From positions 1 through 64,000 of the forward strand of contig JAFSIR010000025.1 of assembly GCA_017439715.1 (NCBI GenBank): a DNA stretch of 64,000 bases, in the 5' to 3' direction. Both the position numbers and the translations under genes were made by a program. The stretch's first letter is position 1. Each line of letters begins with the position of its first letter. This document shows, piece after piece, positions 2,301 to 24,053 of this stretch. The notes beneath the pieces are model-generated. The model was not told the origin of the DNA. It saw only the letters and a list, made by a program, of their open reading frames with translations, and ran no database searches. The DNA comes from Clostridia bacterium (lineage in GTDB: Bacteria > Bacillota > Clostridia > Christensenellales > QAND01).

Positions 2301-3650
2301 GTGCGGTTACTGAAAATGAGCCGAGAAGAATGGCGGGAGATCGGCGGGATGTTTGGCCCGCTGTTCATTGAACAGCTGTCCATTGCGCTGATCCCGACGC
2401 TTGTTTCCATGATGGTGAAGGGAACGGGTTTGGCGGCGGTTGCGGCGGTGAACCTGCTGAACACGCTGGTGCTGGTGATCCAGCAGGTATATACGGCGAT
2501 CGGCGTGGGTGTATCGGTAGTTGTTGCGCAGTATCGCGGACGAGGCGACGTGCATGCCACGGGCCGGGCTGCGGCGCAATGCACCACGCTGGCCATTGTG
2601 CTTTCGTGCGTGGTGGCAGCGGGCTGCTATATTGCGATGGAGCCCATCCTGAGTGCAGTGTTTGGCGCTTCGGAAGAAGCGGTGTATACCTACAGGCGGA
2701 TCTATCTGGCATACAATCTGTTATCGCTGCCGTTTATCGGGGCGTATACCGTGGCAGCGGCGGCCATCCGCGGCAGCGGCTATCCGCGGCTGTCGCTGGT
2801 GTCAACGCTGATTAACAACATTTCGTATGCCGTGATCGCGATTGTTGCGGTGAATGTGTTTAACGGCGGCCTTGTGGGCGTGTGTTATGCTCTGGTGATC
2901 AGCCGGTTCCTTGCAGGTGCATCGGGCATGTGGATCATGCGGCGCGGCACGCCGACGATGCAGATGAAGCGTGCTTTCCTGTTCAAGATGGACCGCGACG
3001 TGATGAAGCCGTTGATGCAGGTGTCTTTGCCGGTGTTTTTGGAAAACCTGCTGTTCCAGAGCGGTAAGCTGATCACCCAAACGTTCTCCATCGCGTATGG
3101 CACGGTGGGCACGGCGGTGAACGGCATTGCCACCAATATGTTTAATCTTGTGCTGGTGCCGGGCAGTATGGTGTCGAACGCGACAACGCCCATTGTGGGC
3201 CGCATGCTCGGCGCGGGCGATGTGGAAGGCGGCAAGCGCAAAGCCAATCAAATGCTGGTGATCTCGCTGATCATCGGCGCTTTGTTCGGTTTCTTGATGC
3301 TGCTGTTTATGGGGCCGCTGGCGCGGTTCTTCTCCGATGATCCTGTGGTGCAGGCGGAGATTAAGCGCACTGTTGCCGTGATCTTTGTGGGCATTCCGCT
3401 GTCATGGCCGTTCGGGTTCGTGATCGCGGCGGGGCTACGCGCCTCGGGCGACAGCCGATTTGCTTCCATCGTAGCGGTGATCTGCATGGCCGTGATGCGT
3501 GTGGGCCTTGGCTATTATCTGACCAAAGTGAAGATGATTGGCGTTGTTGGCATTTGGATTGGCTGCGTGATGGAATACTGGATGCGCGGTGTATTCCTGT
3601 TACCCAGACTGCTCAAAGGCAAATGGGCGGAGCTCAAGCTGCTCGACTGA
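2301..3650 (+). CDS. MATE family efflux transporter (first copy)
   Basis: Multidrug and toxic compound extrusion family antiporter of 449 residues in the cytoplasmic membrane, the usual MATE length with about 12 membrane segments in two similar halves. Typical features are an N-terminal GPLFIEQL segment and the conserved AAAAIRGSGYPR stretch after the fourth segment. It starts with GTG; GAAGAAGG lies 7 bases upstream, and the second MATE protein aligns from the same residue (KLLKMSKEE against RLLKMSREE). The paralogue at 4804-6156 is closely similar over its whole length, so this is a recent local duplication with an unrelated gene between. Substrate unknown. Confidence 0.93.
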   Translation: MRLLKMSREEWREIGGMFGPLFIEQLSIALIPTLVSMMVKGTGLAAVAAVNLLNTLVLVIQQVYTAIGVGVSVVVAQYRGRGDVHATGRAAAQCTTLAIVLSCVVAAGCYIAMEPILSAVFGASEEAVYTYRRIYLAYNLLSLPFIGAYTVAAAAIRGSGYPRLSLVSTLINNISYAVIAIVAVNVFNGGLVGVCYALVISRFLAGASGMWIMRRGTPTMQMKRAFLFKMDRDVMKPLMQVSLPVFLENLLFQSGKLITQTFSIAYGTVGTAVNGIATNMFNLVLVPGSMVSNATTPIVGRMLGAGDVEGGKRKANQMLVISLIIGALFGFLMLLFMGPLARFFSDDPVVQAEIKRTVAVIFVGIPLSWPFGFVIAAGLRASGDSRFASIVAVICMAVMRVGLGYYLTKVKMIGVVGIWIGCVMEYWMRGVFLLPRLLKGKWAELKLLD

Positions 3651-3657
3651 TAAAAAC

Positions 3658-3690
3658 AAAAAAGGGTTGTTCTCACGAACACCCCTTTGG
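3658..3690 (+). terminator. Bidirectional terminator between convergent genes
   Basis: Stem AAAGGG-TGTTC / GAACA-CCCCTTT between the stop of the MATE gene and the stop of the leftward TPR gene, with A and T runs on its flanks. Confidence 0.7.
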
Positions 3691-3692
3691 GA

Positions 3693-4682
3693 TTACTGTT
3701 TAAAGAAAACGGAAACGCTGCCCTGATCGTAGGTGGGCCGCTCGTCCATCTCGATCATGGTATCGGCAATGGTATACGTGGCGGTGAGCTCCACGGTGCT
3801 GCCGGGCTTGAGCGGCGAAACAAACGTGAGTGGGGCAGAATGGCTGCCGCCGTTGTAATCGCGCACATAGGCGGTTATAGCGCCTGTAACGGGATAAGGC
3901 CCGTTGTTGGTGATGCGCACAAGATAATCATAATACACGGTTAGGCTGCCGGAAGACATATCGCCCCGTTCGGCGTAGGAAACAAACTCAATAGAGAGGT
4001 TTGAAAACGCTTTTTTATTGGGATACAGCTTTTTGAATTCGGCCTGCGCGTTCGGAAAATCCTGGCAGGCGAGGGTGTACAGCGCGGCGATATCCTTAGT
4101 TTCCACGGCGGCGTGAAACGCACAGTCTTTATACGCAGCGGCGGCCCGGGTGTTATCGGGATACAGGCTTAACAGCGATAGGGCGGGCTGAAACGCCCCT
4201 TTTTGGTGTAGTGCAAGGCCGGCGGAAACGGCGCTGTGCTCCCAATCCTCGGGAGACAGGGGCTGCACGAGCAAAAGAAAGCGCACGGCACCGGCCGCGT
4301 TCTGCTGGGAAAGCAGGCGGGTCACGGCGGCTTCGCCCGTTTCTTTTAGGGCGTTGCGCACCCATTCATCCTCGGCCACATAGCGTGCATACATGGCGTG
4401 GGCGGATTCAAAATCGTTCTCCGCAAGGCACGCTTCAAAAGCACCGGCCACGGCTTTGGCGCGGTTTTCGCGGGCGTTTTTGCGGTCGATCACCGATTCA
4501 AACAGATCAGCGGCCTGTTCAAAGCGCCCCTGCTCCATCGCAGACACGGCCTTTTGATAGATGAGCATTGGGCGAAACACGGCCAGTGCCAGCGACAGCG
4601 CCAGCGCGGCCGGGATACAAAACAGCAATATCTTTTTCATCTTTGCCGCAGGCGGATTGCCCGCGGGGGAACGGCTTGCCAT
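3693..4682 (-). CDS. Membrane-anchored TPR-like protein, function unknown
   Basis: A 329-residue protein. Residues about 15-37 form one hydrophobic segment (KKILLFCIPAALALSLALA), so the rest is predicted outside the membrane or anchored to it. Residues about 40-220 read as short helix pairs of TPR type (for example YQKAVSAMEQGRFEQAADLF). The last about 100 residues are rich in beta-strand patterns (VYYDYLVRITNNGPYPVTG), like FxLYD-type domains of secreted proteins. ATG 4682 was chosen because GGAGG lies 6 bases upstream; longer upstream readings lack a ribosome site. It lies between two MATE paralogues but on the opposite strand. No specific function can be assigned. Confidence 0.75.
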   Translation of the reverse strand: MASRSPAGNPPAAKMKKILLFCIPAALALSLALAVFRPMLIYQKAVSAMEQGRFEQAADLFESVIDRKNARENRAKAVAGAFEACLAENDFESAHAMYARYVAEDEWVRNALKETGEAAVTRLLSQQNAAGAVRFLLLVQPLSPEDWEHSAVSAGLALHQKGAFQPALSLLSLYPDNTRAAAAYKDCAFHAAVETKDIAALYTLACQDFPNAQAEFKKLYPNKKAFSNLSIEFVSYAERGDMSSGSLTVYYDYLVRITNNGPYPVTGAITAYVRDYNGGSHSAPLTFVSPLKPGSTVELTATYTIADTMIEMDERPTYDQGSVSVFFKQ

Positions 4683-4711
4683 AGGGCACCTCCAAACTCG
4701 GGGTTGAAACC

Positions 4712-4740
4712 AGTATACCGCAAAGCGGGGCAAAAATGAA
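4712..4740 (-). promoter_or_regulatory. Probable promoter of TPR gene
   Basis: Minus-strand TATACT (4712-4717) with a weak TTCATT at 4735-4740, 17-bp spacing. The transcript would start about 20 bases before the ATG. Confidence 0.45.
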
Positions 4741-4745
4741 ATGGA

Positions 4746-4775
4746 TTGGCACAGGAAATAAACGGCACATATAAT
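4746..4775 (+). promoter_or_regulatory. Sigma-A promoter of second MATE gene
   Basis: TTGGCA (4746-4751), 18-bp spacer, TATAAT (4770-4775). It lies 29 bases before the ATG at 4804 and back to back with the promoter of the leftward TPR gene. Confidence 0.75.
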
Positions 4776-4803
4776 TACACACGGTTGTAAACGGAGGCAA
4801 GGC

Positions 4804-6156
4804 ATGAAACTATTGAAAATGAGCAAAGAGGAGCGCAAGGAAATCGGCGGCATGATGTGGCCGGTGTTCATCGAGCAATTCTGTATTGCGGTGATGGGCA
4901 CATTCATCTCCATGATCGTAAAAGGGTCGGGGCTGCAGGCGGTTGCGTCCATTAACTTGCTCAATTCTGTAACAATGCTGTTCCAACAGGCGTACACGGC
5001 CATCGGCATCGGTGTTACGGTTGTTGTGGCGCAGTTCCGCGGCAGGGGTGATACGAAGAGCACCGGACGGGCAGCCTCGCAGAGCACCATGCTGGCGGTA
5101 TATATGGCGTCTGTAGTGGCGGCGCTGTGCCTTGTGTTTATGACGCCCATCCTCAACGATGTGCTGCAGGATTCTGAGCCGCTGATCTACGAATACAGCC
5201 GCATTTATTTAACGTATAACGTGATTTCGCTGCCCTTTATCGGCATTTACACGGTGGCTGCTGCGGCCATCCGCGGCAGCGGATTCCCCCGCCTGTCACT
5301 GATTGCCACGCTGGTGCACAACGTTGCCTATGCAGTGATGGCGCTGTTGGCGGTTCAGGTGTTCAACGCCGGCATCCTGGGCGTGTCCATCGCGCTGCTG
5401 GCAAGCCGTGTGTTTGCTGCAGCGGCCGGCCTTGTGCTGCTCAAGCGCGGCAACAAGAACATGCAGGTGGAAACGCTGTTGGCCTTCAAGATCGAAAAAA
5501 GCATCCTTAAGCCGATGATGCTTGTGGGCCTGCCGATCTTTTTGGAAAACCTGCTGTTCCAGGTAGGCAAGGTGATCACGCAAACCTTCTCCGTTGCGTA
5601 TGGTACGGTGGGCATTGCGGTGAACGGCATTGCCAACAACATGTTCTCCATGATGATGGTGCCGGGAACAGCCGCGTCAAACGCAGCGCCGCCCATCGTT
5701 GGGCGATACTGCGGCATGGGCGACAAGGAAGGCGCCCGGCGCAAGGGCTATCAGTTTATTTTGCTGGCCGTGATCTTTATGGCGCTGGCCTCGCTGCTCA
5801 TGTTTGTGTTGCTTGACCCGGTGGCCAGGTTCTATTCAGACGATGCGTATGTGCAGACGCAGATCAAGCTGGTGGTTGGCCTGTGTGCGGCGGTGATCCC
5901 CATTTTATGGCCGTTGGGCTTTGTAGTGCCGGCCATTCTGCGCTCGAGCGGCGACAGCCGATACTCCTCGGTGATTGCGGTTTTGGCTATGATCTTCATG
6001 CGCGTGGGCCTGGGCTATTATTTAACGCAGGTGCTGCACACCGGCGTGATCGGCATCTGGATCGCCATGTATGCAGACTTTGTGTTCCGCGCCGTGTTCT
6101 TTATTCCGCGGTTGATCAAGGGCAAATGGCTGGAGAAAAAGCTGATCGATGACTAA
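4804..6156 (+). CDS. MATE family efflux transporter (second copy)
   Basis: A 450-residue MATE antiporter, paralogue of the protein at 2301-3650 with matching start, AAAAIRGSGFPR motif and C-terminal RLIKGKW ending. It is expected to export cationic or other drugs with Na+ or H+ in exchange. GGAGG lies 6 bases before the ATG and a clear TTGGCA/TATAAT promoter lies just upstream, so it has its own transcript. An intrinsic terminator follows. Divergence is spread along the protein and no key gap was noticed, so both copies are probably functional. Confidence 0.93.
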   Translation: MKLLKMSKEERKEIGGMMWPVFIEQFCIAVMGTFISMIVKGSGLQAVASINLLNSVTMLFQQAYTAIGIGVTVVVAQFRGRGDTKSTGRAASQSTMLAVYMASVVAALCLVFMTPILNDVLQDSEPLIYEYSRIYLTYNVISLPFIGIYTVAAAAIRGSGFPRLSLIATLVHNVAYAVMALLAVQVFNAGILGVSIALLASRVFAAAAGLVLLKRGNKNMQVETLLAFKIEKSILKPMMLVGLPIFLENLLFQVGKVITQTFSVAYGTVGIAVNGIANNMFSMMMVPGTAASNAAPPIVGRYCGMGDKEGARRKGYQFILLAVIFMALASLLMFVLLDPVARFYSDDAYVQTQIKLVVGLCAAVIPILWPLGFVVPAILRSSGDSRYSSVIAVLAMIFMRVGLGYYLTQVLHTGVIGIWIAMYADFVFRAVFFIPRLIKGKWLEKKLIDD

Positions 6157-14245: not shown

Positions 14246-15328
14246 TTACACACCCTGCAGATCCACGGTGACGCGGTAGGCGCCGGGGGTGGCAGCAGCT
14301 TTGTAAGCTTCGTTGATCTCACGCAGCGGGAAGACTTTGCCTTCGAGCGAGTAAGAGCAGTTGATGAGCTTTTTGCTGATCAGGGTCGCGGAATCGATCC
14401 AGTCTTCCAGATCGCAGCCGAAGGTACCGATGATCTCGATCTTGCGGTAGTGCAGCTCGTTGGGGTCAACCTGGAGTTCGGGTTTCGGATAGCCAGCCGG
14501 GAAGATGACCAGACGGCCGCGAAGGGGTTTGAGCATCTGATAGCCCTGTTTGTAGGCAATGGTGGCACCCACAGCCGCGATTACGCAGTCAGCGCCCACG
14601 CCGCCGGTGAGGTCTTTAACGGCCTGCACAGGATCGGTGTTTTTGGCATCGACGACGTCCGCAAACTTCATTTCTTTCGCGCGGGCGATCTTCTTGGGGT
14701 CAATCTCGGTGATGATAACGCGAGCGCCGAAGGCTTTGGCGACCTGGGCATTGACAAGGCCCATGGTGCCGGCGCCGATAACGACGACGTCTTCCATCGG
14801 TTTGATACCGGCTTTTTTCACGCCCTGCACGACCGTGGCGACGGGCTCAAGGAAACCGGCTTCCGCGGGCGCGATCGCATTGTTGATCGGCACGACGAAG
14901 CGCTGATCACACACGATATAGTCAGCAAACCGTTTGGTGCCATAGAAACCGTCATAGCTCAGGGTTTTGGATTCGCCTTTGCCCGTGCAGTCGCCGGTGT
15001 GGCCGATACGGCAGTTGTGGCATTTGCCGCAGAACGGATGCATAGCGCCGACCTGCATGCCGATTTCAAAGGAATCGAGCACGTTTTCGCCTTTGGCAAA
15101 GATGGTGCCGGCGAATTCGTGACCAGCCGCCATCGGGAAGCCCTGATGGTCGCGCAGGCCCATCCACTGCTGATAGTCCGTGGTGCAGATGTTGTTAGTC
15201 GCCATTTTGATGACGATGTCTTCCGGGCCCACTTCGGGGAACGCGCATTCGTGCATTTCAGCACCGTACGAACCGTCCTCATATTTGTGGATAGCACCGA
15301 AATGGATCTTTTCAGGCAAGTTGTTCAT
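14246..15328 (-). CDS. Zinc-dependent medium-chain alcohol/polyol dehydrogenase
   Basis: A 360-residue MDR-superfamily dehydrogenase, probably NAD-dependent oxidation of a polyol or sugar alcohol. It shows the catalytic zinc region (NNICTTDYQQW and AAGHEFAGTI), the four-cysteine structural zinc loop (FCGKCHNCRIGHTGDC) and the nucleotide-binding GAGTMGLVNAQVAKAFGA. ATG 15328 follows GGAGG by 9 bases. Codon choice is strongly biased, as in the PTS and 29472 aldolase genes, so it is likely highly expressed. The substrate (threonine, sorbitol, idonate or similar) cannot be read from sequence. Confidence 0.9.
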   Translation of the reverse strand: MNNLPEKIHFGAIHKYEDGSYGAEMHECAFPEVGPEDIVIKMATNNICTTDYQQWMGLRDHQGFPMAAGHEFAGTIFAKGENVLDSFEIGMQVGAMHPFCGKCHNCRIGHTGDCTGKGESKTLSYDGFYGTKRFADYIVCDQRFVVPINNAIAPAEAGFLEPVATVVQGVKKAGIKPMEDVVVIGAGTMGLVNAQVAKAFGARVIITEIDPKKIARAKEMKFADVVDAKNTDPVQAVKDLTGGVGADCVIAAVGATIAYKQGYQMLKPLRGRLVIFPAGYPKPELQVDPNELHYRKIEIIGTFGCDLEDWIDSATLISKKLINCSYSLEGKVFPLREINEAYKAAATPGAYRVTVDLQGV

Positions 15329-15480
15329 GAAAATCACCCTCCGTAGTGTTTTTTGGTTTGCGCCCCGGGGGCTCCGAAGCACAACACATATTTTTTTACG
15401 ATTACATTTTACCCTCTTTTGTGTTTGGTTTCAAGCCTAAAAATACGCCGTGCCCAAAAAGGAAACACCGAAACGAACAT

Positions 15481-15509
15481 TTGATATTAGCAATGCAAAA
15501 TGATATAAT
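15481..15509 (+). promoter_or_regulatory. Near-consensus promoter of lipoprotein/ABC cassette
   Basis: TTGATA (15481-15486), 17-bp spacer ending in TGA, TATAAT (15504-15509). The start point would be near 15516, with a leader of about 38 bases. This is among the strongest promoter matches in the window. Confidence 0.85.
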
Positions 15510-15553
15510 ATAGCCATCTATATCTTCGGGTTACCTAAAGGAGTGGACCAGGC

Positions 15554-18500
15554 ATGAAACGCACAAGGAAAGGGTTGGTTTTGTTTGCGGCGCTTTTAGC
15601 GGCGCTGATGACCTTAACGGGATGCTTTAAAGTAACGGCGGTGCCGGTGGAGGATTTTTCGGACAGCCCGTTCAAGCACATCAACAACGGCGGGTTGACG
15701 GATGATGAAACGCTGCCGTACAACATTGATGCGATTACGGGCGCCACGATGACGGTGGAAGGGCCGGGCATGATAACGAGCATTCCGCTCTCCGTGCGCG
15801 AGATTGAAAACCGCAGCGAAGGCCAGTTCCGCGGGATATACAAAGACAGCACCGGCAAGTTCATGTATGAAGGGCTGGATGTGTATTATCTTTTGAACGG
15901 CATGTCCGAAGGAGACAACGGCATCGTGCTGACGGAGACGGCGCAGGTGGTGCAGTTTAAAGACAGCAACCGCGCGACCATCGCAGAGATGGAGATCAGC
16001 GAGATTGAAAAAGCCCACGAAGCGGGCACGCCTGTGATCCTGGCATACGGCATCGGCACAGAAGACGGCGAAACGGTGGCCCCGTTTGTGTTTGACGCGA
16101 AGGCCGACGGCGAGCATTCTTTAGGCTATGTGGACGAGCTCGAGAATGACGACGGGTGCGTAAAACTGGTGTATGACTTGAGCAACACCAAAAACAACCT
16201 GAAATACAAAACGTTTACCAACGTTGCGTATATTTACATTTGTGAAAAAACGGAGCCCGGTTTTAAGCATGCGGATTCCGCGGTGGAAGCTTTCCGTTCC
16301 CCCAAATACACGCAGCGGCTGCTGACTGTCAGCGGCGCGGCGCTGGGCGCGGAATTCAACTTTACGCTGGAAGAGCTGGAAAACCTGGTGGTGTATGACA
16401 GCAAAGGCAACGTGAAAGAAGGCGGCATCGGGTACAGCGATTATTATTGCCTGGCCAACAACGCCTACTGGTATGTGAACGAATACGAAGGCCTTGAGCT
16501 GTATGATTTCTTGCAGTATCTGGGTATGGAAACATATGAAGAAATGGGCCGGTCCAAAGCGCGCACCACCTATGCCAAGTTCCTGGCGGCAGACGGGCGC
16601 GAGAGCACGGAAAGCTTCAACATCGAATCGCTGGCGTATCCGGACGCGTTCGGCTTCTACAATAAGAATGCGGCCGATCCGGGCGACGGCACGTATATGC
16701 CCACGGCGGCGGACCTTGTGGATACCGGGTATCCGGTGCTTCTGGCGTACGGCGTGAACAATTATCCTTACACTATCAGTAAACTTGACGATGGGTATCT
16801 GTCGGGCCTGTCCAACGGCGGCGGTCCGCTGCGCATCGTATTCGGCAAAACACAGTATAACCACGCCAACGGCTCCAACCAGGTGCAGCAGGTGAGCCAC
16901 ATCACCGTGGGTGACCCGGTGAACTACGCCGCTCATGCATACACCACAGACGAGGACCTGGCAGCGTATAAAGACAGCAGCATTGCCATCCGCGTGCTTA
17001 ACCCGGACGGCTCGGTGCTGATGAACAAAATGATGACCGTTGCCGAGATCGAAGCGCTGGTTTACGGCGAAGCGGTTGATGCGGCGACCAAGAGCAACAC
17101 GCAGCGCAAGGGCCTGTATCAGGCGCCTGAAGGGGATAAGCTGGTGACGGATGTTTACGAAGGCGTTGACATGGAAATGTTCCTGATGGATACGCTGGGC
17201 CTGCCGGGCACGAGCGGCAAGATCACCTTCAAGGGCGACACGGAAACGGCTGTGCAGCTGAGCGAAGTGTTTGCCAAGGGCTATAACCCGGAACGCGGCG
17301 TGGAAGGGCTAAGTGCCATCATCGCGTATGCCAAAAACGGCGCGGCTTTAGCGCCCGATGAGAATGCGGCGGGTTATGTGGATGTCCGCGCGCTGCAGCC
17401 GTTCCTGGACAGTGACCCCAAAGAATACCGCGTTGATAACGCCGGCGGGCCGCTTGCGGTGCTCATCCCGAGCGCTACGGCAGAAGAAAAAGGCACGGCC
17501 AAAGCCGTTCATAACTTGAAAGAGATCGTGATCGAGCTGGAGCCCGATTCCTACGCGCACTTGAGCGGGGAAGAGGCGGCGTACCAGACCAGCAAGATCA
17601 AGTTTTACGGCCCGGGCCTGTACAACGAAAAAACGATGACGGTGGCCGAAATTGAAGCGCGCCAGCGCACGGCCAAAACGATGGATTACAGCGTGCTGAA
17701 CAAAAAGGGCGAGCTCAAACAGGAGCGGTACCGCGGCGTGAACCTGTATGACCTGTTCACGGAGATCGGCATCAAGAGCAACGCGGGCAACGTGATCGTG
17801 CACGCGGCAGACGGCAGCAAAACGGAGCTGTCGCTGGCGCTGGTGAAAAAGAGCTATGAAAACTTTGCCGATGCCTCCAAACCCGCGCTGTACGCCATGC
17901 TTGCTTACGGCCAGGGCGATGCTGCTGCAGCGGCAGATTCCAAAGGTGCCCCGCTGACGAGCGAAACGGGCGGGCCGATCAAACTGGTTGTTCCCATGGA
18001 AACGGCGGAAAGCGCCAACAGCGGCCTGTGCGTTAAAAACGTAACGGCCATTGAAGTAACGGCCAACAAGATCGAAACGTGGGGCCACAGCATGAGTGAT
18101 ATTTATGCGGAGTTCCTGCCGTACACCATGACGCTGACAGTAAAAAACGACACGCAGGAAAAGAGCATCGACATCACGGTGGAAGAGCTGGAGAAGCTGG
18201 AAGGCATGATCGTTCGCGACACGTATTCCGTGCTTGATATCGGCACTTGCGAAGGCATTGACCTTTGGAAACTGGTGGAAATCAGCGCGGCGGGCACGGA
18301 AAATCTGAACAACCCCGTGTCTGTAACGGTGTATGCATCTGACGGCTATAAGAATGACCTTTTGAGCGTGTTCTATATGGACGGGCTGACCAAGGGCGTG
18401 GTTGACGGCAACGGCGACCGCAAAAAACTGATCATTGCCTATGCGTTCAACGGCTACCCGCTGGTTGACGAGGAAACGCACGAAGGATATACCGGGATTG

Positions 18501-18625
18501 CCGGCAACACGAGCGGGCCGCTGCGCATTGTGGCAGAAACGGTGCAGGGCGCGAGCGTGAAATATTTTGCCAAGCTTGTGGTGACGCTGCCCGGCAGCGG
18601 CAACATTGAACTGAGTTTGAAATAA
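15554..18625 (+). CDS. Large lipoprotein with five SUOX-like repeats and an FMN-attachment-like motif
   Basis: A 1023-residue exported lipoprotein: lipobox LTGC with Cys24. Residues 59-67 read DAITGATMT, matching the Dxx[ST]GA[ST] motif that ApbE flavinylates on Thr, but the rest of an FMN_bind domain is not visible. The remainder is about five repeats that resemble the sulfite-oxidase (SUOX) molybdopterin-fold domains found in bacterial lipoproteins. Each has a YxGxxLxD-like motif (YEGLDVYYLL, YEGLELYDFL, YEGVDMEMFL, YRGVNLYDLF, CEGIDLWKLV) and most have a later AYG or AYA strand and a GGPL or SGPLRIV segment. Export looks Sec-dependent without a Tat motif, so true molybdopterin loading is unlikely. 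ATG 15554 follows AAAGGAG. First gene of the cassette to 24024. Confidence 0.75.
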   Translation: MKRTRKGLVLFAALLAALMTLTGCFKVTAVPVEDFSDSPFKHINNGGLTDDETLPYNIDAITGATMTVEGPGMITSIPLSVREIENRSEGQFRGIYKDSTGKFMYEGLDVYYLLNGMSEGDNGIVLTETAQVVQFKDSNRATIAEMEISEIEKAHEAGTPVILAYGIGTEDGETVAPFVFDAKADGEHSLGYVDELENDDGCVKLVYDLSNTKNNLKYKTFTNVAYIYICEKTEPGFKHADSAVEAFRSPKYTQRLLTVSGAALGAEFNFTLEELENLVVYDSKGNVKEGGIGYSDYYCLANNAYWYVNEYEGLELYDFLQYLGMETYEEMGRSKARTTYAKFLAADGRESTESFNIESLAYPDAFGFYNKNAADPGDGTYMPTAADLVDTGYPVLLAYGVNNYPYTISKLDDGYLSGLSNGGGPLRIVFGKTQYNHANGSNQVQQVSHITVGDPVNYAAHAYTTDEDLAAYKDSSIAIRVLNPDGSVLMNKMMTVAEIEALVYGEAVDAATKSNTQRKGLYQAPEGDKLVTDVYEGVDMEMFLMDTLGLPGTSGKITFKGDTETAVQLSEVFAKGYNPERGVEGLSAIIAYAKNGAALAPDENAAGYVDVRALQPFLDSDPKEYRVDNAGGPLAVLIPSATAEEKGTAKAVHNLKEIVIELEPDSYAHLSGEEAAYQTSKIKFYGPGLYNEKTMTVAEIEARQRTAKTMDYSVLNKKGELKQERYRGVNLYDLFTEIGIKSNAGNVIVHAADGSKTELSLALVKKSYENFADASKPALYAMLAYGQGDAAAAADSKGAPLTSETGGPIKLVVPMETAESANSGLCVKNVTAIEVTANKIETWGHSMSDIYAEFLPYTMTLTVKNDTQEKSIDITVEELEKLEGMIVRDTYSVLDIGTCEGIDLWKLVEISAAGTENLNNPVSVTVYASDGYKNDLLSVFYMDGLTKGVVDGNGDRKKLIIAYAFNGYPLVDEETHEGYTGIAGNTSGPLRIVAETVQGASVKYFAKLVVTLPGSGNIELSLK

Positions 18626-18727
18626 CCGCGCTGTTCACAGTGGGTGCGCCGGGATTTAGGCTTCTGAATGATTCGGCGTGCCCGCTATAACGAACAGGCA
18701 AAAATAACGAACAAAGGGGAAAACGCA

Positions 18728-19771
18728 ATGAAAAACAAGCGGATCGGGGGGCGGCTTTTGTGTCTGCTGCTGGTGCTTATAATGGTGCTGCCCGCCGGCT
18801 GCGGCACAACGGGCGAACAGACGCCCATGGGGCCAACAGTGACAGACGCGTCCGGCGCGGTGCTGGCACTGAAGGAAAACCGACAGGAGCTTACGATCGC
18901 CTCGGTGTATGCCGTGTCTGTGCCGTTTATCAAAGCCCTTGGGCTGACGGACCGGGTGAAGGCGATCAACTGCAAATCCAATTTCTGGAAAGAGGCAGAC
19001 GAGCATCTTAAGGCCGCCGGGTCTGTGGGCCGCGGCAAGGTTGACCTTGAAGCGCTGGCAAGCTTTGCCCCCGATGTATTGGTGCACCGTTCCAACGACA
19101 CGGACACGCTGGAAGCAGTGGGCCAGCTGGGCGTTACGCTTTTGTGCATTTCGGCGGAGGACATGGCCGGCATTTACAGCACGCTGGAGCTGATGGGCAC
19201 GTATTTCGGCGTGGAAGAGCGGGCGGCGGAAGTGATCGCCTGGATGGACGCCAAGTTTGCCAGGATCGATGCGCTGGTGGCTGATATCCCCGAAGAGGAC
19301 CGCAAAACTGCCCTTGTGATGGGCGGTGAGCTGGGCCGCATTGCGGGCGGCGACATGCTGCAGAGCTGGATGATTGAAAAGGCGGGCGGCGTATGCGTAG
19401 CCAAAGGCATTGAAAACAACAGCAACTGGGTGACCGTTGGCGTGGAAAAAGTGTTCAGCATGAACCCGGAAGTGATCATGTGTACCTCGTCTACCGCGCT
19501 TGAATATGAACTGAGCGACATGCTTGAAGGACCGGCATGGAGCGCGGTGGAAGCGGTGAAAAACAAGGCGGTGTATCAGATCCCGTCCTTGAAAGATTCG
19601 TGGGATATGCCGGGGATCAGCCCGGTATTGGGCACGATGTGGATGGTGCACACCATGTATCCCGAAAAGCTCAGCAAAGCAGAGCTTGAAAAAGAAATTG
19701 AAGAGTATTATCTGTTCCTGTTCGGCAAAACGTTTACCCCTGAAACGCTGGGGTATGAATTGAGCTTTTGA
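18728..19771 (+). CDS. FecB/BtuF-type ABC substrate-binding lipoprotein
   Basis: A 347-residue lipoprotein (PAGC, Cys25) of the periplasmic-binding-protein family that serves FecCD-type importers of siderophores, haem, cobalamin or, in MolA-type members, molybdate/tungstate. Typical features are a helical backbone linking two lobes and the phrase GSVGRGKVDLEALASFAPDVLV. ATG 18728 has AAGGGGA 7 bases upstream. Its stop overlaps the permease start by one base. The ligand cannot be named; SUOX-like neighbours make an oxyanion, metal or porphyrin plausible. Confidence 0.88.
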   Translation: MKNKRIGGRLLCLLLVLIMVLPAGCGTTGEQTPMGPTVTDASGAVLALKENRQELTIASVYAVSVPFIKALGLTDRVKAINCKSNFWKEADEHLKAAGSVGRGKVDLEALASFAPDVLVHRSNDTDTLEAVGQLGVTLLCISAEDMAGIYSTLELMGTYFGVEERAAEVIAWMDAKFARIDALVADIPEEDRKTALVMGGELGRIAGGDMLQSWMIEKAGGVCVAKGIENNSNWVTVGVEKVFSMNPEVIMCTSSTALEYELSDMLEGPAWSAVEAVKNKAVYQIPSLKDSWDMPGISPVLGTMWMVHTMYPEKLSKAELEKEIEEYYLFLFGKTFTPETLGYELSF

Positions 19772-20805
19772 TGGGCAGGGGCAACCAAAAAAACAGGCTT
19801 TTGCTGTTATTAACGGTGAACGGCGTGCTGCTGATTTTATTGGCAACGGTGGTTGTTGTGGCCGTGTGCGTGGGAAAATACGCCGTTACGCCCGCAGAAT
19901 GCCTTAAGGTGATTTGGGGTGCGGTGTCGCATACGCCGAGCGGCTGCGCGCCGATGACGGAGAACGTGGTGCTCATGCTGCGCCTGCCGCGCATTCTGGC
20001 CTCGGTGCTGGTGGGCGCGTGTTTATCCGTTTCGGGTGTTGCGTATCAGGGCGTATTCCAGAACCCGCTGATCGCGCCTGATTTTTTGGGCGTGTCCAGC
20101 GGCGCGTGTATCGGTGCGGCAGTGGCCATTTTACTCTCGCTCGGGCGTGGATCAACGCAGTTGATGGCGTTTTTGGGCGGCATTGTTGCTGTTGCCATCA
20201 CGGTGCTTATCCCCATTGCGATCCGCAACAACACAAACATTATGCTGGTATTGAGCGGCGTTGTGGTAGGCGCGGCGGCGAGCAGTGTTTTGGGCTTTAT
20301 CAAGTTTACCGCTGACCCCGAAAGCCAGCTGGCGGCCATCACGTATTGGACGATGGGTGATTTCAGCTATATCCAGATGGACGACATTTTGTCTGTACTG
20401 CCCATGATGGGTGTGGCGGGCGTGGTATTAACGCTGAACAGCTGGTGGCTTGATGTTTTGAGCATGGGCGAAAACCAGGCCAGAAGCTTAGGTGCAAACG
20501 TGACGCTTTTGCGGAACATTACCATCGTGTGCGCCACGCTGTTAACGGCAGGCAGCGTTTGCTTGGCCGGCACGATCAGCTGGGTGGGGTTGGTGATCCC
20601 GCATTTGAGCCGCATGATCGTTGGCCCGAATAACACAAGGCTGATTCCCGTGTCTGCGCTGATGGGCGGGCTTTTCATGCTCGTGGTTGACACGCTGACA
20701 CGCACAATCGGCGCCATTGAAATGCCGGTTAGCATCCTGACAGGGCTGATCGGTGCGCCGTTCTACATTTATTTGCTGATACGGAACAAGAGGGCAGGCG
20801 CATGA
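19771..20805 (+). CDS. FecCD/BtuC-family ABC importer permease
   Basis: A 344-residue membrane protein with about ten helices, FecCD family. Recognisable segments are RLPRILASVLVGACLSVSG, the QNPLIAPDFLGVSSGA stretch and GLVIPHLSRMIVGPNN near the C-terminus. ATG 19771 overlaps the TGA of the binding protein; a TTG just before it is possible. Its stop overlaps the ATPase ATG by 4 bases, so the three import genes are translationally coupled. Only one permease is present, implying a homodimer. Confidence 0.93.
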   Translation: MGRGNQKNRLLLLLTVNGVLLILLATVVVVAVCVGKYAVTPAECLKVIWGAVSHTPSGCAPMTENVVLMLRLPRILASVLVGACLSVSGVAYQGVFQNPLIAPDFLGVSSGACIGAAVAILLSLGRGSTQLMAFLGGIVAVAITVLIPIAIRNNTNIMLVLSGVVVGAAASSVLGFIKFTADPESQLAAITYWTMGDFSYIQMDDILSVLPMMGVAGVVLTLNSWWLDVLSMGENQARSLGANVTLLRNITIVCATLLTAGSVCLAGTISWVGLVIPHLSRMIVGPNNTRLIPVSALMGGLFMLVVDTLTRTIGAIEMPVSILTGLIGAPFYIYLLIRNKRAGA

Positions 20806-21587
20806 ACGGGATATATGAGCTGCAGGGCGTAGATTTTATGTATCCTTCGGGGCGGCGCAAGGTGCTCAATGATGTTACGCTGTCCGTGCGCGAGGGCGAA
20901 GTGCTCAGCATTTTGGGGCCCAATGGCGCGGGTAAAAGCACGCTGCTGAACTGCATGTTAAAACTGCTTAAAATTACAGGCGGGCGCATTTTGCTGCGCG
21001 GCAAGCCCATTGAACAATGCCGTGCCAAGGAGATTGCCGCAGTGGTGGGCTATGTGCCGCAGAGCATGCCGGTAGCGTTCCCCTACACGGTGGAAGATTT
21101 TGTGCTCATGGGGCGGGCATCGCGCGTGAGCGTGATGGGCAAGCCCACAGCACTTGACAGGGAAAAGGCGCAGGAAGCCATTGCTCTCATGGGGTTGGAG
21201 CGCATCAAAACCGCAGCGTTTACGGAGCTGAGCGGCGGCGAGCAGCAGCAGGTTGCTATTGCGCGCGCCATTGCCGCGGAGCCGCAGGTGATTTTGTTTG
21301 ACGAGCCGACCAGCCACCTTGATTTTGGCAATCAATTAAAAACGCTGCGAATGGTAAAACAGCTGTGCGAGCGGGGGTTTGCCGTGGTGATGACCACGCA
21401 CAACCCGGATCACGCGCTGCTGTTGGGACACAGAGCGGCGTTGTTGGACCGCGAAGGCCGTTTAACGAGCGGGCCTACGGATGAAGTGGTGACCGAGGAA
21501 AAGCTCAAAGCGGTGTATGAAGCGGACCTGAAGATCCGCTTCATGGAGGAAGAGAAGCGGCGGGTTTGCATTTATCCGGCGCTGTAA
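20802..21587 (+). CDS. FecE/BtuD-family ABC importer ATPase
   Basis: A 261-residue ATPase that energises the adjacent permease. Walker A GPNGAGKST, signature LSGGEQQQVAIARA, Walker B VILFDEP and the switch histidine TTHNPDH are all present. It starts inside the end of the permease gene (ATGA). The C-terminal about 30 residues (EKLKAVYEADLKIRF) match the usual FecE tail. Confidence 0.95.
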   Translation: MNGIYELQGVDFMYPSGRRKVLNDVTLSVREGEVLSILGPNGAGKSTLLNCMLKLLKITGGRILLRGKPIEQCRAKEIAAVVGYVPQSMPVAFPYTVEDFVLMGRASRVSVMGKPTALDREKAQEAIALMGLERIKTAAFTELSGGEQQQVAIARAIAAEPQVILFDEPTSHLDFGNQLKTLRMVKQLCERGFAVVMTTHNPDHALLLGHRAALLDREGRLTSGPTDEVVTEEKLKAVYEADLKIRFMEEEKRRVCIYPAL

Positions 21588-21654
21588 AACAACGGTACTT
21601 ACCGGGATGACCGGTGATGATACAATATCCGAATCCAAACAGGAGGGAAAGAAG

Positions 21655-22650
21655 ATGAAGAAGTTTAAAAGCCTTGCGGCGCTGATGCTGGCGCTGGTAA
21701 TGGTGCTGAGCCTGGCGGCTTGCGGCGGCACGAAAGCTCCCGTTGACGAGGGCGGGCAGCAGCAGGGCGGCGATGCCAAGCTCGAAGAAGTGATGGGCAT
21801 CACCATCCCTGAGTTCTCCGTGCTGGTTAACGGCGTGGCAGTAACGCACGAGATGATGGCCGATTACGCGGTGTACAAAGTGGTGGCGACGAGTGTGAAC
21901 AGCTCGGGCACCGAATCCACCGTTACGTACTGCGGTTTCTCCATGGCGGACGTGCTGACGGCTACCGGCCTCAAAGGCGAAGCGACCAAGCTGACTGCGG
22001 TGGCGACCGACGGATACGAAGTGGAATACGATGCGGCCCTGTTGAAAGAAGCGGACACCCTTTTGGCGCTGACAAAAGATGGCGAGCCCTTCTCCAAAGC
22101 GCCGTGGTTTGCCCCGTGTTCTTCCGAAACAACGGGCGATTACATGAAACTGCTGAGCGAGCTGAAGATCGAAGGCATGGATGTTAAAGAAGGCGGCGAG
22201 AAGCAGCCGGCCGGCGAAGGCGAAGAGATTGACCTGGATGCGCTGCCGGAAATTTCCGACAGAACGGACAAAGTGGTTTTTGCGGATTTCTGCTTCAAAG
22301 TTAACGGCAAAGAAGTGAAAAACGCCGATCTGGAAGGCCTTTCCATTTACAAGATCGAGCGCAGCATGCTCAACAAAAAAGGCAACATCAAGACCAGCAC
22401 CTACACAGGCTATTAGCTGGCCGATGTGCTTAACAAACTGGGCATCACCGGTTACACCAGCGTGATCGCCGTTGCCAACGATGGCTTTGAAGTGACTCTT
22501 TCTGCGGAAGCGGCCAACAGCGATTACACGCTGCTTGCCATTGAAGTGGACAAAGAAGTGGGCGAAGACGGCACGATCTGGGTGGCGCAGTGCGAAAGCA
22601 GCTCCTCCAGCGATTATGCCAAACTGATCGTTGAGATCAAAGCGCAGTAA
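21655..22650 (+). CDS. SUOX-like two-domain lipoprotein interrupted by an in-frame TAG
   Basis: Lipoprotein (LAAC, Cys23) with two similar domains of the same type as the repeats in 15554-18625. Domain 1 (about 45-170) has YCGFSMADVL. Domain 2 (about 215-331) has LNKKGNIK, as in repeat 4 of the large protein. In domain 2 an amber codon (22414-22416) falls inside the YxGxxLxD motif (TYTGY, stop, LADVL). Reading continues in frame for another 78 codons of normal coding character to TAA at 22650. The full product would be 331 residues, the truncated one 253. The TAG is at a position occupied by D, E, N or S in other repeats. It is a nonsense mutation, a sequence error or a recoded codon. ATG 21655 follows AGGAGG by 8 bases. 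Confidence 0.75.
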
Positions 22651-22664
22651 CACAAAACGCTATG

Positions 22665-22703
22665 GGCTGCCGCAATGCTGCAAGGCAAGGCGGCAGCCTT
22701 TTT
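22665..22703 (+). terminator. Intra-cassette hairpin with T tract (possible attenuator)
   Basis: Stem GGCTGCCG / CGGCAGCC with an 18-base loop and five T. It lies between the TAG-containing lipoprotein and the rhodanese-like gene and may lower expression of the last two genes. Confidence 0.6.
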
Positions 22704-22720
22704 AAAAAAGGAGAAAAACG

Positions 22721-23398
22721 ATGAAACGGATGCTGGGGCTTTGCCTTGCGTGTGTGATGGCGCTGTGCCTGTTCGGGTGTGCGGGGGAAGCTAAACCGGC
22801 ACCACTGCCCAAGCCCGAAGCTATGCAGGGCGACCAATTCGGCGTGGATAAAAACATCAATATGACCACCATTGACCAATATTTGGGGCGGGACGATGTG
22901 GCGTATCGTGACATGCGCATGCTGTTTGACCCGGCGCAGTATGGCGATATTGGCGGCGAGGCTGACCTGACCCGCACGATCCGGGGATTTAAGGTGGTCC
23001 CCTTTCCGTATATCGGCACGCTGCAGAGCCTGCCGGTGGCGGGCGCGTACACGGGCGACAAGCTGTTTGACATTGTGTGGACCGCCTCGGGCGAGGTGGA
23101 AAGCGTAACCCCGGTGTATGAAGAATCGATGACCATTTTGGAAGAGCTGTTCCCCAAAGACAAGGCCATCTTTTTGATGTGCGGTGGCGGCGGGTATGCC
23201 GGCATGATGCGTACGCTGCTGATCGAGCTGGGGTGGAACGAAGCGCTTTTATACAACATCGGCGCTAACTGGACCTATGACGGAGAAAATAAGCTAGAGC
23301 TGATCGTGTATCCGGAAGCGGTAGATGGCAACAAACTGTATGCCATGTGGCGGGCGGATTACGCGTTCATCCCGTTTGATAAGCTGAACAAGCGGTAA
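22721..23398 (+). CDS. Rhodanese-like lipoprotein
   Basis: A 225-residue lipoprotein (LFGC, Cys20). Residues 151-172 (FLMCGGGGYAGMMR followed by an amphipathic helix) look like a rhodanese active-site loop, with Cys154 as the persulfide-carrying residue; the earlier DDVAYRDMRMLFDPAQY fits the second strand and helix of that fold. If right, it handles sulfur or another chalcogen outside the membrane. AAAAGGAG lies 8 bases before the ATG. It is the sixth gene of the cassette; the next gene starts 11 bases later. The fold call rests on pattern only. Confidence 0.65.
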   Translation: MKRMLGLCLACVMALCLFGCAGEAKPAPLPKPEAMQGDQFGVDKNINMTTIDQYLGRDDVAYRDMRMLFDPAQYGDIGGEADLTRTIRGFKVVPFPYIGTLQSLPVAGAYTGDKLFDIVWTASGEVESVTPVYEESMTILEELFPKDKAIFLMCGGGGYAGMMRTLLIELGWNEALLYNIGANWTYDGENKLELIVYPEAVDGNKLYAMWRADYAFIPFDKLNKR

Positions 23399-23409
23399 AG
23401 GAGCAGAAG

Positions 23410-24024
23410 ATGAAACGGATCTTATGCATTGTGCTGGCCGTGCTGACGGCGCTGTGCGTTGCTGCGTGCGGATCGGCAGGTGCCCCTGCGCCCACGGCGC
23501 AGCCCGGCGGCCTTGAGGCGGATAAACTATCTGAGTTTGTGGATGTGGTGTATTTTACGCATTACGCTTCCGGCGGCACGGCGGAAGAATATCCTGCCAT
23601 CATTTTGATGGAGGAAAGCAATTCCACGTTCACGTGTTATCAGGTGGCGTATTCGGGCTGCACCTGCCGCGATTCCATGGCAAACTATTATTCCGTGGTG
23701 TATGTGGAACTGTTGAACACCAAGCCTTCAGGCGATGAGGCGGCCATCCGCAGCATCACCATGGCGGACAACAAGGGCCTGTGGGGCGACAGCAACCCCA
23801 ACTATTATATTGCCGAGTACACGCAGGAATACATGGATGAACACTTTTTGCAGCCCCTGGTGGGCGTTACAAAGGCGGAGTTTGACGCCTGGCAGGGCTA
23901 CGGCACGCAAATAGACGCCATTGAGGCGGACGCCGTTTCCGGCGCCACGGTGTCTACCGGCAACCTGACCAGCATGCTCAGAAGCCTGCTTGCGTATCAT
24001 GCAGAAAAGTATTATCAGAACTAA
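23410..24024 (+). CDS. FMN-binding-domain lipoprotein
   Basis: A 204-residue lipoprotein (VAAC, Cys20). The C-terminus carries DAVSGATVS (residues 174-182), the classic flavinylation motif in which ApbE links FMN to Thr180. The preceding 130 residues have the size of an FMN_bind domain and contain CTCRDSMANYYSV, with two cysteines. It should act as an extracytoplasmic one- or two-electron carrier. GGAG lies 7 bases upstream of the ATG. Last gene of the cassette; a terminator follows. No ApbE gene is in the window. Confidence 0.85.
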   Translation: MKRILCIVLAVLTALCVAACGSAGAPAPTAQPGGLEADKLSEFVDVVYFTHYASGGTAEEYPAIILMEESNSTFTCYQVAYSGCTCRDSMANYYSVVYVELLNTKPSGDEAAIRSITMADNKGLWGDSNPNYYIAEYTQEYMDEHFLQPLVGVTKAEFDAWQGYGTQIDAIEADAVSGATVSTGNLTSMLRSLLAYHAEKYYQN

Positions 24025-24029
24025 AGATT

Positions 24030-24053
24030 AAGGGCGGAGAACCGCCCTTTTTT
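24030..24053 (+). terminator. Terminator of lipoprotein/ABC cassette
   Basis: Stem AAGGGCGG / CCGCCCTT with AGAA loop and T run, 6 bases after the last stop. Confidence 0.9.

Follow-up and report, generated by a model that had tools for sequence, protein, structure and literature searches.

The gut is regarded as very poor in tungsten, yet tungsten enzymes are common there. In the recent literature, the systems named for this metal are Tup, for acquisition, and the storage protein Tub (PMC13328260). The low-affinity molybdate importer MolBC-A has a binding protein, MolA, that also binds tungstate (PMC4031551), and the PruR proteins, which lack a molybdenum-ligating cysteine, carry small pterins in a pocket thought too small for the molybdenum cofactor (Moco) (PMC13259868). 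In this study, we analyzed a window of 64,000 nucleotides from a Clostridia bacterium (contig JAFSIR010000025.1), which contains a cassette of seven same-strand (+) genes, g1 to g7, at 15554-24024. On balance, this cassette probably serves to acquire tungsten or molybdenum outside the cytoplasm and belongs to the supply of tungstopterin and molybdopterin enzymes, e.g., aldehyde:ferredoxin oxidoreductase (AOR), with flavin and sulfur chemistry attached. At the level of sequence comparison, the gene set and its order are conserved, the operon of the relatives belongs to a tungsten/molybdenum-cofactor gene set, and g2-g4 resemble MolA-MolB-MolC. No description of the cassette was found among the open-licence papers searched. 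Its features, with the genes read off the window and their presence at these coordinates confirmed, are as follows.

15481-15509, + strand, promoter of the sigma-70 type with an extended -10 (TTGATA-17-TATAAT, TG; 11/12), by sequence match
15554-18625, + strand, g1, a 1023-residue lipoprotein with five tandem SUOX/PruR-like domains, by Pfam and model
18728-19771, + strand, g2, a substrate-binding lipoprotein of the Fec/MolA type (Peripla_BP_2), by Pfam
19771-20805, + strand, g3, a FecCD-type permease, by Pfam and PDB match
20802-21587, + strand, g4, an ABC ATPase (ABC_tran), by Pfam
21655-22650, + strand, g5, a lipoprotein with two SUOX-like domains, by family-level Pfam
22414-22416, + strand, an in-frame TAG (amber) codon within g5, by sequence
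22721-23398, + strand, g6, a rhodanese-like lipoprotein, by family-level Pfam and a cysteine loop
23410-24024, + strand, g7, an FMN_bind-like lipoprotein, by family-level Pfam and motifs
24030-24049, + strand, a terminator-like hairpin and T-run 3' of g7, by sequence

To find relatives, 84,980 species genomes were scanned with g1, and the layouts of all loci were read by open reading frame calling and BLAST. Relatives of g1 are encoded at 53 loci, mostly at full length and with 32-58% identity in the best segment. Most of them come from metagenome-assembled genomes (MAGs); the carriers are nearly all MAGs of Clostridia, among them gut and anaerobic members, and the isolates include Flavonifractor sp. 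An112 and Lutispora saccharofermentans. In the first layout, the order g1-g2-g3-g4-g5-g6-g7 is kept at eight loci (L013, L014, L015, L017, L020, L021, L030, and L052), while L026 lacks g6 and L016 is rearranged relative to this order. The second layout, g6-g7-g1, occurs in L019, L024, L025, L033, and L045, with a one-domain g5 upstream in, e.g., L019, L024, L025, and L033. The third has a giant g1 of 1,500-2,700 residues, followed in Mogibacterium-type loci by permease, ATPase, and binding protein. By eye, the giant orthologues of L036, L041, and L057 contain beta-propeller-like repeats, and that of L057 has an S-layer-homology-like C-terminus. The distribution of g1 is patchy, because none of the 395 other genomes of the host's own order encodes a relative, leaving this order without a second carrier among 396 genomes. 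The original prediction of one surface system agrees with these results: relatives of the 1023-residue lipoprotein co-occur with FecCD and FMN_bind proteins in the eight complete loci, where importer, flavinylation, rhodanese-like, and SUOX parts stand in the same order. Given this conserved neighborhood, the seven genes are not grouped by chance.

Within the window, the seven genes are closely packed behind one strong promoter, as had been predicted. Of five promoter-like sites in the region, this one ranks first; since 6.5 sites are expected by chance, the claim rests on its rank and position, not on the count. The several start/stop overlaps that had been reported come down to exactly two true ones, between g2 and g3 (1 base) and between g3 and g4 (4 bases). 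The five predicted lipoproteins, including the ABC binding protein, all have a lipobox-type cysteine by eye (g1, g2, g5, g6, and g7), and the importer has a single permease and a single ATPase, as expected. Another terminator-like hairpin lies between g5 and g6 at 22676-22695 and is possibly an attenuator within the operon. Base composition gives no signal of foreign origin (G+C 0.560 vs 0.556). The leader from the promoter to g1 is only about 40 bases long and therefore leaves no room for a riboswitch. Neither RF01055 nor any other Rfam family matches in the window, and the interval 15300-15640 around the g1 start is empty even at E = 10.

Among the relatives, the link to molybdenum and tungsten is made by neighbors and by regulation. 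The neighboring gene clusters include, as confirmed by Pfam, MoaA, MoaC, MoaE, MogA, MoeA, MobB, ThiF/MoeB-like proteins, XdhC, AFOR (AOR), and ApbE. The Moco/tungsten cofactor (Tuco) riboswitch, RF01055, is located directly upstream of g1 in L017, L020, L021, L037, L041, L049, L053, L056, and L058, upstream of moaA in L033, and upstream of apbE-g1 in L034 and L057. An extra model trained on 12 of the RF01055 hits, and thus dependent on Rfam, finds further sites. No terminator-like hairpin was found on the coding strand 3' of three riboswitches. None of the RF01055 alignments shown has a P3 stem. In the portion of Regulski et al. 2008 on which we draw (PMC2408646), P3-less Moco RNAs correlate with tungsten-cofactor metabolism. 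According to the same portion, two P3-less RNAs of Syntrophomonas wolfei, which stand beside genes for a 'putative Moco-utilizing sulphite oxidase', seem to be exceptions, and this organism has a triple-RNA operon. L034 and L057 are Syntrophomonas MAGs with g1 orthologues behind riboswitches, and at L034:7020-7621 three riboswitch matches in tandem precede apbE and a giant g1, resembling the S. wolfei triple arrangement. Because these orthologues occupy the same position, the cassette family probably accounts for the S. wolfei exceptions.

At the level of whole genomes, AFOR_C is found in 43/43 carriers vs 20/248 genomes in the host's order. In the order of a Flavonifractor carrier it is found in 9/197, a count that includes three carriers; across the two sampled orders, the background is 4-8%. 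The association is one-way, as most AOR genomes of the host's order have no g1. In the host itself, a single AOR match was obtained, and it falls on a partial gene located at the end of a contig (G000:C37:86197-86790). MoaC is likewise enriched, with 39/43 carriers vs 19/248 genomes in the host's order. The idea that the cassette substitutes for missing known importers was weakened by the same kind of census: PBP_like_2 (TupA/PstS) is absent from 12 and ModA from 17 of the 43 carriers, and only five lack both (L022, L023, L024, L032, and L033; the census covers these two families, in MAGs that are incomplete).

The importer itself points in the same direction. Against solved structures, g3 matches the MolB protein HI1471 best (206 bits), followed by a haemin permease (165) and BtuC (131). 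The best match of g2 is the uncharacterized 4hn9 (86 bits), with others at 70 and 62 bits and the MolA protein HI_1472 at 55 bits. An island (L099) on contig C7 of the host encodes another FecCD permease, which shares 49% identity with g3. The island begins with an RF01055 riboswitch at 3682-3805 (39.4 bits; cut-off 36) that extends to the start codon of a lipoprotein gene (riboswitch and gene, 3682-5570). This lipoprotein consists of a TupA-like half, which scores 204 bits with NF041772, under the full-length model cut-off of 400, fused to a Fec-type half that is 29% identical to g2. The next genes encode the permease, an ATPase, XdhC, TupB-like and TupC-like proteins, and two MoeA proteins (one with a PBP domain), and the final ones encode MoaC, MoaA, a MOSC-like protein (by eye), and MogA. 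Judged by sequence, this island provides the strongest in-host evidence for placing g2-g4 in the molybdenum/tungsten importer group. The ligand could, in principle, instead be haem, a corrinoid, or a siderophore moved by a Fec-type importer, with the molybdenum/tungsten neighbors being incidental. The family of the importer, weak matches of g2 to IsdE and BtuF, and the ABC_cobalt-type ECF S component encoded close to some relatives fit this alternative. However, the riboswitch, AOR, and Moco associations across the loci, the closeness of the permease to MolB, and the paralogue in the host's tungstate island all run counter to it, and we regard it as quite improbable. Of the ligands first suggested, a metal, haem/corrinoid, or molybdate, the molybdate (MolA-type) option is thus favored, and haem and corrinoid are not, as permease and neighborhood point to molybdenum and tungsten.

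The largest protein of the cassette, g1, matches Oxidored_molyb (PF00174; 1.4e-13) and has five domains, at about residues 65-231, 256-452, 476-663, 681-837, and 858-1011. An AlphaFold2 model based on 39 orthologues (pLDDT 86, pTM 0.74) is a chain of five similar domains. In Foldseek it matches sulfite oxidases, and its best single-domain matches are the PruR pterin-binding proteins (TMt 0.69-0.73), including the neopterin complex 7rkb. A PDB profile search with g1 gave no match; the PDB matches come from the structure search only. In the 39 orthologues, no cysteine column is conserved at the expected molybdenum-ligating site in any domain; each domain has one invariant histidine (42, 239, 461, 669, and 845; 39/39). 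The signal of g1 is by eye a lipoprotein signal without a twin arginine, and no twin-arginine translocation (Tat) signal was found in g1. The smaller g5 falls short of the Oxidored_molyb cut-off on its own (21.8 bits; cut-off 24), and its family matches throughout (14/14, best 4e-13). As sequenced, g5 stops after residue 253 at the TAG codon, instead of having 332 residues. The frame beyond the TAG is intact and homologous to its end, and relatives have mostly Lys or Arg, in some cases Ala, at this position; the TAG may reflect nonsense polymorphism, an error of assembly, or read-through. The predicted SUOX-like folds are present in g1, by model and Pfam, and in the g5 family, by Pfam. The accompanying suggestion, that the fold is reused for a ligand other than molybdopterin, stands in part: the absence of the cysteine and of a Tat signal agrees with it, whereas the neighborhood and regulation of the relatives, which are those of molybdenum/tungsten-pterin metabolism, and the best match, PruR, do not.

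The same features bear on whether g1 and g5 are themselves a surface enzyme of the sulfite oxidase type containing Moco or Tuco, which would receive electrons from the flavin lipoproteins and be served by a private metal importer. The fold would suit such an enzyme, as would the FMN, ApbE, and 4Fe-4S NapH-like genes among the neighbors and the naming of S. wolfei genes under riboswitch control as putative Moco-utilizing sulphite oxidases (PMC2408646, in the portion cited above). However, none of the five g1 domains has a conserved metal-ligating cysteine. Folding of Moco enzymes takes place in the cytoplasm, whereas g1 bears a lipoprotein signal that is not of the Tat type. In addition, the E. 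coli Moco RNA acts as an OFF switch, as described in that portion of Regulski et al., which fits acquisition better than use. Such an enzyme is, in our estimate, improbable.

The likeness to PruR raises two further alternatives. One is that the SUOX/PruR-like array binds whole (metallo-)molybdopterin shed by other cells, with the importer taking in the cofactor or its metal-pterin fragment. SUOX is a molybdopterin-binding fold, the best single-domain match of g1 binds pterins, and small SUOX lipoproteins stand, together with MobB and in the same regulon, beside importers of the Fec and ECF (vitamin) types; dietary uptake of Moco by animals is described in the part of PMC9793310 on which we draw. 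Against this, MoaC is present in 39/43 carriers, which can therefore start a pathway of their own; Moco is presumed too large to fit into the PruR pocket (PMC13259868); and the pterin-binding Trp of PruR is by eye not evident in the g1 domains. Cofactor scavenging is accordingly an unlikely account, but the foremost of the alternatives. The other is that the SUOX array senses pterins and signals, with no transport. Apart from the structural likeness to PruR, the evidence is unfavorable, since no DcpA or sensor-kinase partner is found among the conserved neighbors and the usual partner is an importer; this alternative is very improbable.

The small SUOX lipoproteins of the relatives have a conserved Trp near the C-terminus and accompany either a Fec-type importer, as in the Mogibacterium loci, where they have an invariant Cys, or an ECF-type importer with MobB. 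In the former arrangement, the genes after the importer encode a Big_2 protein, a MotA/ExbB-like protein, in most loci DUF2149, and a small SUOX lipoprotein with the invariant Cys (L029, L031, L032, L035, L036, L038, L044, L046-L048, and L061), which is possibly an energized uptake step in a Gram-positive organism. In the latter, a gene for a small SUOX-fold protein lies among those of the importer (ABC_cobalt-like S component, CbiQ-like T component, and two ATPases), and MobB usually follows (L034, L037, L039, L049, L053, L054, L057, and L063); in L049 the importer sits behind a Moco/Tuco riboswitch at 3252-3370.

The last two genes and g1 supply the predicted rhodanese-like part and the covalent-flavin motifs. 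On its own, g6 has no Pfam match, and Rhodanese is matched by 5/19 members of its family (best 1e-7). Its Cys154 is invariant and lies within a rhodanese-type C-x-x-G-G loop, and there are weak rhodanese fold matches. FMN_bind scores 18.6 bits with g7 alone (cut-off 22) and matches 17/20 of the g7 family (best 8e-6). The g7 protein contains CTCR at 84-87, a CxC motif being present in 19/20 relatives, and the flavinylation motif DAVSGAT at 174-180. The corresponding motif in g1 is DAITGAT at 59-65; because the strict form D-x-x-[ST]-G-A-[ST] is present in 28/39 orthologues and the acceptor Thr65 is invariant, g1 is, like g7, probably flavinylated. This motif suffices for flavinylation by ApbE (PMC12052999), and ApbE is encoded in the host genome (G000:C34) and in 40/43 carrier genomes. 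In four other genomes of the host's order, the FMN_bind and rhodanese-like parts are fused in one exported protein (L008:6545-7876, L009:10101-11534, L010:9568-10908, and L011:9375-10808), which supports a joint action of g6 and g7. For g6, only these fused proteins surfaced in the same-order search, and no relative of g6 was found on plasmids. A model of the fusion is poor (pLDDT 59), giving weak support to the rhodanese fold and none to the FMN_bind fold. By eye, an MsrA-like gene adjoins the fusion gene in L008 and L009, which hints at extracytoplasmic thiol/sulfur redox work, and no molybdenum/tungsten genes were seen beside the fusions.

Taken as an acquisition system for tungsten or molybdenum, the cassette could work as follows. 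The Cys-less SUOX/PruR-fold receptors g1 and g5 would collect a tungsten or molybdenum species (an oxyanion, a thio-anion, or a metal-pterin) at the cell surface. Flavin, which ApbE would attach to g1 and g7, would act together with the g7 CTC motif and the rhodanese cysteine of g6 as a relay of electrons and sulfur, so that the captured metal is freed or remodeled, e.g., from sulfide or dithiolene ligands. The released species would be taken over by g2 and imported by g3-g4 for MoeA-dependent insertion. Candidates for the ligand are tungstate, molybdate, a thio-anion, a chelate, and a metal-pterin; we favor a metal species over uptake of the whole cofactor. A bolder version, in which the flavinylated pterin-fold array captures intact tungstopterin or molybdopterin, or its metal, and the flavin-thiol-rhodanese relay opens the metal-dithiolene before MolBC-type import, seems rather unlikely.

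Several points weigh against the proposed acquisition of tungsten or molybdenum. The molybdenum/tungsten genes accompany the relatives and the host paralogue and were not seen directly beside the window copy, for which neither the Rfam scan nor the model trained on 12 hits detects a riboswitch. Haem, corrinoids, and siderophores are also carried by Fec-type importers, and g2 is closer in sequence to an uncharacterized binding protein than to MolA. The cassette is not the sole tungsten importer of the host, which encodes a TupABC-like system as well. The AOR background was taken from only two of several carrier orders, g5 is interrupted as sequenced, the flavin/sulfur relay is read from motifs only, and the steps from capture to import are predictions.

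If this proposal is right, it would explain the 'sulphite oxidase' genes under tungsten-type riboswitches that Regulski et al. 2008 left unplaced. The Syntrophomonas g1 orthologues share with the S. wolfei genes a position next to Moco RNAs, which are P3-less in S. wolfei and in tandem in L034; the cassette, the Cys-less SUOX array, and the importer are not described in the cited portion of that work (PMC2408646). Sulfite oxidase and MsrP (YedY) have the same fold and PF00174 in common with g1, which differs from them in its tandem array and in having no conserved metal-ligand cysteine and no Tat signal. PruR (7KOM, 7KOS, and 7RKB) is closer, being an exported SUOX fold without the molybdenum-ligand cysteine and of about 160 residues per domain. 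In contrast to PruR, g1 has five tandem domains on a lipoprotein, a flavinylation motif, and an importer as partner, and neither DcpA or a sensor kinase nor, by eye, the binding Trp is evident. In the cassette, Cys-less SUOX folds would have a concrete function, and so would flavinylated lipoproteins outside respiration. Like MolBC-A of Haemophilus influenzae (HI1470-HI1472), it has a single FecCD-type permease, one ATPase, and a Fec-type binding protein. However, g2 is a lipoprotein and only distantly MolA-like, and four further surface lipoproteins are co-encoded. The permease and binding-protein families of TupABC differ from those of the cassette, but the proposed metabolic role is the same, and the TupA-like protein of the host is fused to a g2-like domain. 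A second, surface-based system beside Tup would, if confirmed, be a new piece of the tungsten economy.

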